Below, in pieces: positions 42,777 through 44,103 of a stretch of 64,000 bases of DNA. The notes under the pieces are model-generated. The model ran no database searches. It was not told where the DNA came from and saw only the letters and a list, made by a program, of their open reading frames with translations. A program made the translations under genes and the position numbers. Each line of letters begins with the position of its first letter. Positions within the stretch are counted from its first letter, which is position 1. The DNA is from Aquiflexum balticum DSM 16537 (GTDB taxonomy: Bacteria > Bacteroidota > Bacteroidia > Cytophagales > Cyclobacteriaceae), in assembly GCF_900176595.1 (NCBI RefSeq), contig NZ_LT838813.1, forward strand, positions 372,001 to 436,000, given 5' to 3'.

Positions 42777-43397
42777 GTGGAATATTCTTCCAAATTGATA
42801 GAAAACGCAGTAACTGAAATCAGCAGATTGCCTGGTATCGGTAAAAAAACTGCCATGAGATTAGCATTATATCTTCTTAAGCAAAAAGAATCTGTCAGCG
42901 ATGATCTTGCCGGTGCTATCACAGCATTAAGAAAAAATATTAAATATTGCAGCCTTTGCCATAATATATCGGATACAGAAATCTGCAGCATCTGCAATGG
43001 GAAAAGACGGGATAAAAGTTTGATCTGTGTAGTAGAGGACATCCCTGATGTACTTGCTATAGAGAACACTTCCCAATACAATGGACTTTATCATGTTTTG
43101 GGGGGAGTTATTTCTCCGATTCAAGGTATTGGCCCCGATGAACTCAAGATTGATTCTTTGATAAATAGAATCCTTAATTCACATGCTGAGGAAAAAGTAA
43201 AAGAAGTCATAATGGCACTTCCTGCCACCATGGAAGGAGACACAACTTCATTCTACATTAGCCGAAAGTTAAATGAACATCAGATAAAGGTAAGCACAAT
43301 CGCAAGGGGTATACCAATAGGCGGAGAATTGGAATTTACAGATGAAGTAACTTTGGGAAGAAGTATTCTTACCAGAGTAAAATATTCTCCTGATTGA
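42777..43397 (+). CDS. recR: Recombination mediator RecR
   Basis: RecR acts with RecO/RecF in loading RecA at gaps. The 206-residue protein has the helix-hairpin-helix ISRLPGIGKKTAMRLALYLL (near 14-33), a C4 zinc finger (CSLCHNISDTEICSIC, near 58-73) and the Toprim domain (CVVEDIPDVLAIE near 84, and HVLGGVISPIQGIGPDEL near 107). It starts with GTG at 42777; no in-frame ATG is at the expected position. Confidence 0.97.
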   Translation: MEYSSKLIENAVTEISRLPGIGKKTAMRLALYLLKQKESVSDDLAGAITALRKNIKYCSLCHNISDTEICSICNGKRRDKSLICVVEDIPDVLAIENTSQYNGLYHVLGGVISPIQGIGPDELKIDSLINRILNSHAEEKVKEVIMALPATMEGDTTSFYISRKLNEHQIKVSTIARGIPIGGELEFTDEVTLGRSILTRVKYSPD

Positions 43398-43405
43398 TAA
43401 TTTCC

Positions 43406-43436
43406 TTTGTCCAAATCAAAAGGCTTTCTATATTTG
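43406..43436 (+). promoter_or_regulatory. Promoter of the tRNA-Ala locus
   Basis: TTTG (43406-43409), 19-bp spacer, TATATTTG (43429-43436): an exact match to the Bacteroidota consensus, just after recR. The predicted start near 43443 lies 5 bp before the first 56-bp repeat, so the repeats are inside the transcript. Confidence 0.8.
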
Positions 43437-43447
43437 CAAACCCAAAT

Positions 43448-43595
43448 GGGGGATTATCCCGATAGCTATCGGGATGGCCAGAGAATATAAAGATTGAAAC
43501 TTTGGGGGATTATCCCGATAGCTATCGGGATGGCTAGAGAATATAAAGATTGAAACTTTGGGGGATTATCCCGATAGCTATCGGGATGGCTAGAG
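43448..43595 (+). repeat. Three tandem 56-bp units: tRNA-Ala 5' end with palindrome in the D-stem
   Basis: Unit starts are at 43448, 43504 and 43560; units 1 and 2 are 56 bp and unit 3 ends early at 43595. Each starts GGGGGATTA, identical to the first nine bases of the tRNA-Ala at 43613. Then comes the perfect palindrome TCCCGATAGCTATCGGGA where the tRNA has GCTCAGC, then TGGCTAGAG (unit 1 TGGCCAGAG), again identical to the tRNA. The rest of units 1 and 2 (AATATAAAGATTGAAACTTT) is not tRNA-like. Confidence 0.95.
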
Positions 43596-43611: not shown

Positions 43612-43686
<75 letters not shown>

Positions 43687-43691
43687 CTTTA

Positions 43692-43718
43692 GACTTACAG
43701 ATCCTGTAAGTCTTTTTT
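43692..43718 (+). terminator. Terminator of tRNA-Ala
   Basis: GACTTACAG, loop ATC, CTGTAAGTC followed by six Ts. An exact copy lies at 44076-44103 behind the tRNA-like sequence. Confidence 0.92.
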
Positions 43719-43734
43719 ATTTTATACCATTTTT

Positions 43735-43995
43735 ATGGAAGATCTATATTTTGTCTATATCATTTACTCTCCTAAAATCAACCAGTTCTATATTGGTTCC
43801 ACTAATGATTTGGAAGCCAGGCTCAGGCATCATAACTCAGGTGCTACTCCATCAACAAAAAAAGGGGCGCCTGAGTGGACTATCAGATATATTGAAGATT
43901 TCCAGACCAAGTCAGATGCTCTAAAAAGAGAAATCCAGATCAAAAGGAAAAAAAGTAGAAAATACATCGATTTCCTGATTAGCTCAGCTGGTTAG
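43735..43995 (+). CDS. Small GIY-YIG nuclease-domain protein whose C-terminus is encoded in tRNA-like DNA
   Basis: The 86-residue protein is a minimal GIY-YIG domain: FVYIIYS and FYIGSTNDLEARLRHHNSG give the GIY and YIG strands with the catalytic Arg, and SDALKREIQIKRKKSRKYID carries the catalytic Glu and a basic helix. The last codons (LISSAG) and the stop TAG are read from a tRNA D-arm sequence (CTGATTAGCTCAGCTGGTTAG). The gene lies between the intact tRNA-Ala with its terminator and a second copy of the same tRNA 3' half with the same terminator. A homing-endonuclease-like or repair role is inferred; no helper genes are present. Confidence 0.85.
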   Translation: MEDLYFVYIIYSPKINQFYIGSTNDLEARLRHHNSGATPSTKKGAPEWTIRYIEDFQTKSDALKREIQIKRKKSRKYIDFLISSAG

Positions 43996-44070
43996 AGCGT
44001 CCCGCAAGCCTGCGGGAAGGTTCCCGAAATACTTCGGGACAGGCTATCGGTTCGACTCCGTTATCCTCCA
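43976..44070 (+). pseudogene. tRNA-Ala-like pseudogene with two palindromes replacing the anticodon arm
   Basis: The D-arm region (43977-43999) matches tRNA-Ala with one change (GGTTAG for GGCTAG). The T-arm and 3' acceptor strand through the discriminator (44046-44070) are identical to tRNA-Ala. The 5' acceptor strand is not complementary to the 3' strand. Between the arms lie TCCCGCAAGCCTGCGGGA (44000-44017) and TCCCGAAATACTTCGGGA (44022-44039) in place of the anticodon arm. It cannot decode. The first half overlaps the end of the GIY-YIG gene. Confidence 0.9.
44000..44039. repeat. Pair of TCCCG-family palindromes
   Basis: Two 18-bp hairpins, each a 7-bp stem with a 4-base loop (TCCCGCA/TGCGGGA and TCCCGAA/TTCGGGA), 4 bp apart. 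They share the TCCCG...CGGGA frame with the three palindromes upstream of tRNA-Ala. Confidence 0.9.
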
Positions 44071-44075
44071 CTTTA

Positions 44076-44103
44076 GACTTACAGATCCTGTAAGTCTTTT
44101 TTT
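44076..44103 (+). terminator. Duplicated tRNA-Ala terminator
   Basis: GACTTACAG, ATC, CTGTAAGTC and a T-run, identical to 43692-43712. It ends any transcript of the GIY-YIG gene and the tRNA-like sequence. Confidence 0.9.

Follow-up and report, generated by a model that had tools for sequence, protein, structure and literature searches.

Candidate homing units at bacterial tRNA genes: a small GIY-YIG nuclease gene framed by tRNA-Ala(GGC) and a partial copy of it in Aquiflexum balticum

A gene for an 86-residue GIY-YIG nuclease lies in the chromosome of Aquiflexum balticum DSM 16537 between an intact tRNA-Ala(GGC) gene and a partial, hairpin-bearing copy of that tRNA, and the same layout recurs in Bacteroidota and Patescibacteria alike, where it is found beside tRNAs of many isotypes. 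The DNA analysed, hereafter the window, is a stretch of 64,000 nucleotides (nt) from this genome (5.99 Mb, one contig; NCBI RefSeq assembly GCF_900176595.1, contig NZ_LT838813.1, positions 372,001 to 436,000 of the forward strand), and coordinates count from its first letter. We favour, with a probability of roughly 55%, the reading that the window holds one copy of a SegB-like, free-standing homing endonuclease unit, chromosomal in location, which enters tRNA genes and regenerates them. An original prediction, made from the letters of this locus, had suggested a tRNA gene with duplicated ends that houses a small nuclease unit; this is supported and is more general than was noted, as GIY-YIG genes ending in tRNA sequence were sought in other genomes and the layout was seen again in many of them, next to tRNAs of numerous isotypes.

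The tRNA-Ala(GGC) locus

The locus comprises the following features, among them an open reading frame (ORF) for the nuclease of 86 amino acids (aa).

43406-43436, + strand: promoter-like sequence TTTG-N19-TATATTTG, 5' of the repeat array and tRNA-Ala, read from the sequence
43447-43595, + strand: three direct repeats at 56-bp spacing, with the tRNA-Ala 5' end (GGGGGATTA), a hairpin and TGGC(T/C)AGAG
43613-43687, + strand: intact tRNA-Ala(GGC), called by ARAGORN and also matched by RF00005
43691-43718, + strand: terminator of the tRNA, a hairpin with a T run, copy 1, from sequence and repeat comparison
43735-43995, + strand: gene for the 86-aa GIY-YIG nuclease, from ORF, Pfam, AlphaFold and Foldseek
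43977-43999, + strand: D-arm of a partial tRNA-Ala copy, GATTAGCTCAGCTGGTTAGAGCG, overlapping the end of the nuclease ORF
44000-44017, + strand: hairpin 1, TCCCGCAAGCCTGCGGGA, at the anticodon-arm position, from the fold of the insert
44022-44039, + strand: hairpin 2, TCCCGAAATACTTCGGGA, also at the anticodon-arm position, from the fold of the insert
44046-44071, + strand: 3' portion of tRNA-Ala with T-arm and 3' strand of the acceptor stem, showing no mismatch to the live tRNA
44075-44103, + strand: terminator of the tRNA, copy 2, from repeat comparison

The nuclease ORF ends in LISSAG, and its TAG stop codon (43993-43995) lies, as originally read, inside tRNA-derived D-arm sequence, 43977-43999 being identical to 43617-43639 of the live tRNA-Ala at 22 of 23 positions. 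The predicted exact repetition of the tRNA 3' end, the CTTTA spacer and the terminator is equally borne out: 44046-44102 equals 43662-43718 over 57 nt with no mismatch, and chance is excluded. No integrase is encoded in the unit, no ORF of 60 aa or more other than the GIY-YIG gene being listed in 43687-44103, and an integrase-borne tRNA island was rejected on this ground.

Two features had escaped the original prediction, namely the upstream 56-bp repeats and the like structures at other tRNA loci of the genome. In the upstream repeats the hairpin TCCCGATAGCTATCGGGA stands in for GCTCAGC of the tRNA-Ala 5' end; two repeats are near-identical, and the third departs after its own hairpin and TGGCTAGAG. 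The promoter-like sequence ahead of them was called from the Bacteroidota promoter consensus and is resembled, by eye, by sequence ahead of the copies at the syntenic site of relatives. Further upstream lies an ORF (42777-43397) that we take to be recR.

Distribution and tRNA linkage

A profile built from 14 proteins has matches in 93 of 148 Bacteroidota genomes and in 105 of 145 from the phylum to which a Falkowbacteria genome belongs, totals that are not counts of tRNA-linked units because they include unlinked UPF0213-like relatives. The Bacteroidota sample consisted of 110 stretches (30 from the search and 80 picked from the high-scoring part of the matches listed) with 134 distinct GIY-YIG genes of at least 60 bits, lower-scoring matches being dropped. 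A same-strand tRNA lies within 250 bp of 90/134 of these genes (upstream of 74, downstream of 18) and an opposite-strand tRNA within 250 bp of none (0/134); the Bacteroidota genomes read number 56, in 15 family codes, and linked units occur in 52 of them. When 133 genes were re-counted, the 43 unlinked ones resolved into 26 tandem siblings, 6 with tRNA-like remnants, 2 near a stretch end and 9 unexplained. In a second set, mainly Patescibacteria (the phylum of the Falkowbacteria genome plus the genomes of loci L018, L019, L030 and L035), 35 of 46 GIY-YIG genes are linked to a tRNA on the same strand and none to one on the opposite strand, 26 of 33 genomes have at least one linked unit, and the intact tRNA is mostly directly downstream of the nuclease gene. 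The nearest tRNAs across all sets are of isotypes Ser, Pro, Ala, Asn, Val, Gly, Met, Asp, Leu, Arg, Lys, Thr, Gln and Cys, with Tyr and Glu found once each. The tRNA search can miss genes near stretch edges, and the isotype label of a unit, that of its nearest same-strand tRNA, is possibly wrong within tRNA clusters.

The linkage is a property of one subfamily. Sixteen genomes chosen for weak best matches served as a control (30 loci read, 31 GIY-YIG matches), and at 40-60 bits only 1 of 23 UPF0213-like GIY-YIG genes of Bacteroidota, many of which end NPxWxDL-like by eye, is tRNA-linked, as against 90/133 for the Bacteroidota units (Fisher p about 6e-9). The expectation that tRNA genes of this phylum often have small GIY-YIG genes as neighbours is therefore correct for the subfamily (90/134) and fails for its UPF0213-like relative; by this context the units were not assigned to UPF0213, though the sequence families are close. 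At 20-40 bits in the control 4 of 8 matches are linked, several of the four being, by eye, truncated or divergent tRNA-type copies. Among the loci of the first relatives, linkage was 2/14 at 40-60 bits, 1/10 at 60-80 and 8/10 at 100 bits or more; below 60 bits it was 3/16 among the high-score Bacteroidota loci, and at 40-60 bits in the second set 3/7.

Units also occur in tandem. In genome G112 (L113, G112:C34:6000-11000) a 364-bp unit is repeated 7.9 times, each with a GIY-YIG ORF and a tRNA-Met 3' fragment carrying a CCGCC..GGCGG hairpin; in 7 of the 8 copies the frame stays open to the normal C-terminus, the left end of the array is a partial tRNA-Met, and no intact tRNA is called by ARAGORN anywhere in this stretch. 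Other tandem copies are at L060, L085, L098 and L187. Genomes of about 1 Mb in the Falkowbacteria phylum have up to 15 profile matches (G302 15, G283 14, G233 13). Contigs stop in or beside units at L014, L016 (Saprospiraceae MAG-26) and L066 (G031); short-read assemblies may therefore break there, with under-counting of units.

A nuclease lineage that tracks tRNA isotype

The window protein belongs to the GIY-YIG nuclease superfamily by sequence (Pfam PF01541, E 6e-17) and by the GIY-YIG folds that Foldseek retrieves, and its AlphaFold model has a mean predicted local distance difference test score of 93 and a predicted template modelling score of 0.81. Y19, G21, R29, H33 and E66 are invariant among the 14 proteins, an Arg and a Glu being catalytic in this superfamily. 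PHROGs matches are weak, with E 1.4e-5 for the window protein, and most are homing endonucleases; the nearest protein matches in the genome collection, with the nuclease alone compared, come from two Algoriphagus species. A group I intron endonuclease (TIGR01453, 24 bits against an NCBIfam cut-off of 56) and a defence gene (two proteins tried, with PADLOC matches no better than E 0.0003) were considered and rejected.

Selection was estimated from 99 between-locus pairs at least 60% identical, in 20 of which, a few being pairs of unlinked relatives, the ratio of nonsynonymous to synonymous substitution (dN/dS) could be computed. It is at most 0.18 in 20/20 of these and up to 0.51 between copies within a locus; the low values imply purifying selection that keeps the enzyme functional.

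On a tree of 143 proteins, the isotype label changes 46 times as against a shuffled mean of 102.7 (0/200 shuffles as low), and with one protein per locus (122) again 46 times as against 88.1 (minimum 82 in 200 shuffles). The Pro, Asn, Leu and Ser groups each span several host families. The tree was made by a quick method from few columns and leaves 66 of 140 inner branches open.

Flanking tRNA copies and the D-arm junction

Where the live tRNA is upstream, the 3' flank of the nuclease gene scores higher with its own tRNA than with every tRNA of another isotype in 64/73 units (median score 43 with its own, 15 with others). Where it is only downstream, a copy of the 5' part precedes the nuclease gene in 15/15 Bacteroidota units (14 starting at tRNA position 1) and in 15/24 units of the second set. 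Judged from this layout, the gene stands outside any intron or intein and is flanked by target homology in the same 64/73, 15/15 and 15/24 units. Of 80 3' copies, the 72 with 20 or more matched nt were measured: 45 begin at or before tRNA position 26 and 61 extend to 3 nt or less from the 3' end of the tRNA, and among the 15 5' copies of Bacteroidota 10 stop no later than position 28; these endpoints place the junction in or near the D-arm for most units, as does the end of the window ORF. tRNA-derived sequence begins before the stop codon ends in 28/73 units with an upstream tRNA, and the nuclease ORF overlaps the intact tRNA in 9/16 units with a downstream tRNA only, so that a tRNA-supplied stop codon, predicted from the window, is frequent without being general or constant.

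Replication slippage that duplicates tRNA genes in tandem, followed by their decay, with the GIY-YIG gene as an ancient passive hitch-hiker, would explain the hairpin-bearing copies without a nuclease at the recR site (L054, L055, L059 and L065) and at other tRNA loci of the window genome. It is nevertheless improbable in our view, given that across two phyla and many isotypes the linkage is to one strand only and is not shared by a relative family, that the protein is under purifying selection, and that a partial copy lies beyond the nuclease gene in most units, at the frequencies just given.

The tie between nuclease lineage and isotype, and the position of the upstream copies of the window between promoter-like sequence and tRNA, would also fit a nuclease acting on RNA, either a tRNA-cleaving toxin or a processing enzyme, with the hairpin-bearing copies as decoys or regulator. 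This we consider very unlikely. To our knowledge GIY-YIG enzymes cut DNA; many partial copies begin within the tRNA and vary in the arms they keep, unlike a conserved decoy, and the PADLOC matches are weak.

Hairpins in the partial tRNA copies

The 80 units with an upstream tRNA yielded 70 inserts, of which 48 fold so well that at most 1 in 30 shuffles is as good. A simple position rule assigns 36 inserts to the T-arm, 27 to the anticodon or variable region and 7 to the D-arm; 21 are pure insertions with no tRNA sequence lost, 12 of them precisely at TTC^R of the T-loop, and several hold, by eye, two consecutive hairpins. Others replace a fixed stretch, as do CGAGTTCG or CGGGTTCG in the T-arm of Asp copies (families f12, f14 and f17) and Gly copies (f21). 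Some types go with an isotype by eye: TCCGCC..GGCGGA is common to tRNA-Met copies of f1, f21 and f24, one f6 copy differing, and TGGCGC..GCGCCA to tRNA-Pro(cgg) copies of f12, f14 and f24. The TCCCG type is found at many isotypes.

The hairpins also bear on the biochemical role of the nuclease. Its order of Foldseek relatives is UPF0213 (1zg2), SLX1 entries and then I-TevI, and a structure-specific, repair-type enzyme is possible because UPF0213 and SLX1 are closer than I-TevI; UPF0213 likewise consists of one small GIY-YIG domain. Such an enzyme would take hairpin (cruciform) DNA as its substrate and drive array expansion and contraction as a mainly vertical resident of tRNA loci, for which the recurrence of well-folding hairpins in partial copies speaks, together with hairpin arrays that have no nuclease nearby and would thus allow action in trans. 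We hold this unlikely, as the D-arm junction, and the regular pairing of a complete tRNA at one end of the nuclease gene with a fragment at the opposite end, resemble insertion with tRNA regeneration, and several isotype clades cross host families, though the last point alone leaves room for vertical descent.

The recR-tRNA-Ala site in related genomes

The recR protein is present in 58 of 60 genomes of the family; 30 loci were read, in 12 of which the neighbour is tRNA-Ala(ggc), once on the opposite strand, and the sequences of 13 loci were inspected. The tRNA stands alone in L062 and L063 and has no clear additional copy in L057. A single hairpin-bearing 5' copy is found in L054 and L065, and copies on either side of the tRNA, without a nuclease gene, in L055 and L059. 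The nuclease gene is present in L053 (the window), L058 and L060, twice in tandem in the last, while only its start is left, by eye, in L067; in L066 the contig stops within hairpin-bearing copies. Empty, partly occupied and GIY-occupied forms are thus all seen, and units with and without a nuclease exist at one site. The expectation that empty and occupied sites would differ by a nuclease-bearing insert is contradicted in part, the duplicated unit being nuclease-free in L054, L055, L059 and L065.

A homing model

From the anatomy of the units, their recurrence, isotype tracking, purifying selection, hairpin sites and presence or absence between species, we infer cleavage, homing, a direction of events and a role for the hairpins along the following lines. 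The nuclease would cut the tRNA gene of matched isotype, most likely in or near the D-arm, and repair would use as template a copy holding tRNA, terminator and nuclease gene, the tRNA halves serving as homology arms. The product would be a nuclease gene flanked by a full, functional tRNA and, at its other end, by a 5' or 3' tRNA fragment, and the host would keep its tRNA because a complete one is restored. Recombination between tRNA copies could then expand the unit into tandem arrays, while redundant copies may gain short hairpins at the T-loop, anticodon arm or D-arm and lose tRNA function; these hairpins may also protect copies from the nuclease or act as a structured target. A more specific version, to which we give somewhat less than even odds, sees minimal mobile elements of about 350 bp with one 85-aa nuclease, common across Bacteroidota and Patescibacteria, whose homing target is the D-arm of isotype-matched tRNA genes and which bring a complete replacement tRNA, the flanking fragments being marked by T-loop or anticodon-arm hairpins against re-cutting or loss. 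That the hairpins make recombinational excision lethal (a poisoned copy) was kept as an idea only; clean loss of the unit would still be possible because the longest homology (57 nt) is 3' of the hairpins in the window.

Several points weigh against homing. The nearest solved relatives are UPF0213 (1zg2/1ywl) and SLX1, which also lead by sequence, where I-TevI is weak. The live tRNA at an occupied site should still hold the target and yet must escape cutting. No tRNA link was found for 9/133 Bacteroidota genes, and 9/24 units of the second set are without a clear 5' copy. Hairpin-bearing tRNA copies occur with no nuclease nearby at the recR site and at other tRNA loci of the window genome, and three evenly spaced copies of a hairpin plus AGGTC occur in G081 (G081:C146:20773-21148), a genome without a detected GIY-YIG match; the hairpins may therefore be partly independent of the nuclease. 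The host-family label takes 51 changes on the same tree, on which the shuffle comparison was made for isotype only, and the isotype clustering could in part be vertical inheritance at each tRNA locus. Presence and absence at the recR site compare species rather than strains. As to carriers, no relative of the window protein was confirmed among viral contigs and none was found among plasmids, and cargo of a phage or plasmid was rejected as a reading; two S. aureus phage records match at 38% identity over 79% of the query.

The closest parallel to the favoured homing unit is SegB, a larger enzyme that is phage-borne, the units here being chromosomal, with a single domain of about 85 aa, at many isotypes and in both Bacteroidota and Patescibacteria. 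In phage T6, tRNA-Tyr and segB amplify in tandem by recombination that depends on the nuclease, the 5' end of the tRNA and the 3' end of segB sharing microhomology (PMC13096335), and T4 segB sits between tRNA genes and has the tRNA intergenic region as its target (PMC2988022). SegB is thus like the present enzymes in being a free-standing GIY-YIG nuclease beside tRNA genes with the same type of junction, and differs in that the portions of these accounts drawn on here contain no hairpin-bearing partial tRNA copies (PMC13096335, PMC2988022). The supposition that an element of the present kind is undescribed holds in so far as the open-access literature (preprints and most subscription papers lie outside it), in the portions drawn on, gives no account of chromosomal tRNA-linked GIY-YIG units or hairpin-bearing partial copies; the principle is not wholly unprecedented because of the T6 microhomology, at least as far as that account was drawn on (PMC13096335). 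There is a fair chance that the units, as an extension of the known free-standing GIY-YIG homing endonucleases of tRNA regions, deserve a class of their own.

Other systems share single traits with the units. Tyrosine recombinase islands insert in a tRNA gene, regenerate it and leave a tRNA fragment at its far end; the units here are only about 350 bp, have no integrase and would replace site-specific recombination by a nuclease and homology. Repetitive extragenic palindromic (REP) elements have a tyrosine transposase as partner enzyme. REP/GTAG palindromes are short bacterial palindromic repeats, as are the hairpins here, but mostly extragenic and genome-wide, and GIY-YIG is not mentioned in the paper on them (PMC3733652). 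Fungal mitochondrial double-hairpin elements and cryptophyte mitochondrial palindromic tRNAs place hairpins or palindromes in or near tRNA and are tied to rearrangement; they are organellar and, in the part of the source used, have no link to a GIY-YIG tRNA unit (PMC5910586). A GIY-YIG domain gene is among those predicted, in the part of the study used, as donated by Patescibacteria to other bacteria (PMC12455944).

If the homing reading is true, the units would be a widespread and easily missed selfish element in essential genes, visible in annotation as small GIY-YIG proteins and odd tRNA copies, and tRNA genes of many isotypes would be nurseries for a selfish nuclease lineage. They would be a chromosomal counterpart of phage SegB-driven tRNA amplification, could account for tandem tRNA arrays and tRNA fragments in Bacteroidota and would be one possible reason for contig breaks at tRNA loci. 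Isotype-matched 85-aa nucleases, present or absent at a conserved site, offer a direct test system.

Other tRNA loci of the genome and the palindrome

Like structures occur, among the stretches fetched from the window genome, at tRNA-Lys, Asn, Asp, Val(tac), Val(gac), Thr and Met. At tRNA-Lys three hairpin-bearing 5' copies precede the first gene and more copies follow it. Seven 5'-half copies of tRNA-Asn with TCCCGTATGTACGGGA, about 78 bp apart, lie upstream of tRNA-Asn in L194 (G000:C1:2130500-2132300), with a GIY-YIG remnant, by eye, downstream. One hairpin-bearing copy separates two intact tRNA-Asp genes; the tRNA-Thr locus runs from seven copies at 54-55 bp spacing through the tRNA to a nuclease; and tRNA-Val(tac), tRNA-Val(gac) and tRNA-Met have hairpin-bearing copies too.

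The exact 20-nt palindrome has 8 sites genome-wide, 7 of them at tRNA loci. The pattern TCCCGN3-10CGGGA has 116 places in the window genome (13 for a control pattern), and among the 58 places listed in the first 2.93 Mb, 35 are near-perfect palindromes, including all 19 that lie within 700 bp of a tRNA, a zone of 0.77% of that DNA. The other 39 are away from tRNA and 16 of them are near-perfect, so the palindrome is not restricted to tRNA loci. Across Bacteroidota, TCCCGN3-9CGGGAAGGTC, which covers one hairpin class, is present in 24/148 genomes, several matches looking like chance because their inner bases are unpaired; its association with GIY-YIG matches by genome is weak (18/93 with a match, 6/55 without).

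The copies of TCCCGATAGCTATCGGGA far from tRNA, that weak association and the regularly spaced hairpins of G081 all suit an independent mobile palindrome, REP-like or double-hairpin-like, that survives only in function-free tRNA copies, hairpins and nuclease unit then being two distinct parasites in one niche. The concentration of near-perfect palindromes close to tRNA genes speaks against such independence, as does the isotype tracking of some hairpin types (Met and Pro(cgg), by eye), which the TCCCG type does not show. We regard it as a minority possibility, and one compatible with homing of the nuclease unit.

Tracts L202 (G000:C1:5020800-5021900) and L201 (G000:C1:1033000-1034400), in neither of which ARAGORN calls a tRNA, contain tRNA-like sequences with hairpin CCGCCTCGGCGG or bare tRNA 3' ends GGTTCGAATCCTTCTCCTACA and are possible remnants of lost units. 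In L199 (G000:C1:480300-481400) and L050, with no tRNA in the stretch, TCCCGATAGCTATCGGGA lies inside intergenic-looking repeats of type CGTCACCCTGA, which are a second niche for this palindrome. Finally, in a tRNA-Lys/Pro/Arg cluster (L193, G000:C1:7700-9700) two tRNA-Lys genes are preceded by hairpin-bearing tRNA-Lys 5' copies, and ATACCGATAGCTATCGGTAT lies in the D-arm of two near-complete tRNA-Lys copies, both of which ARAGORN still scores as tRNA.

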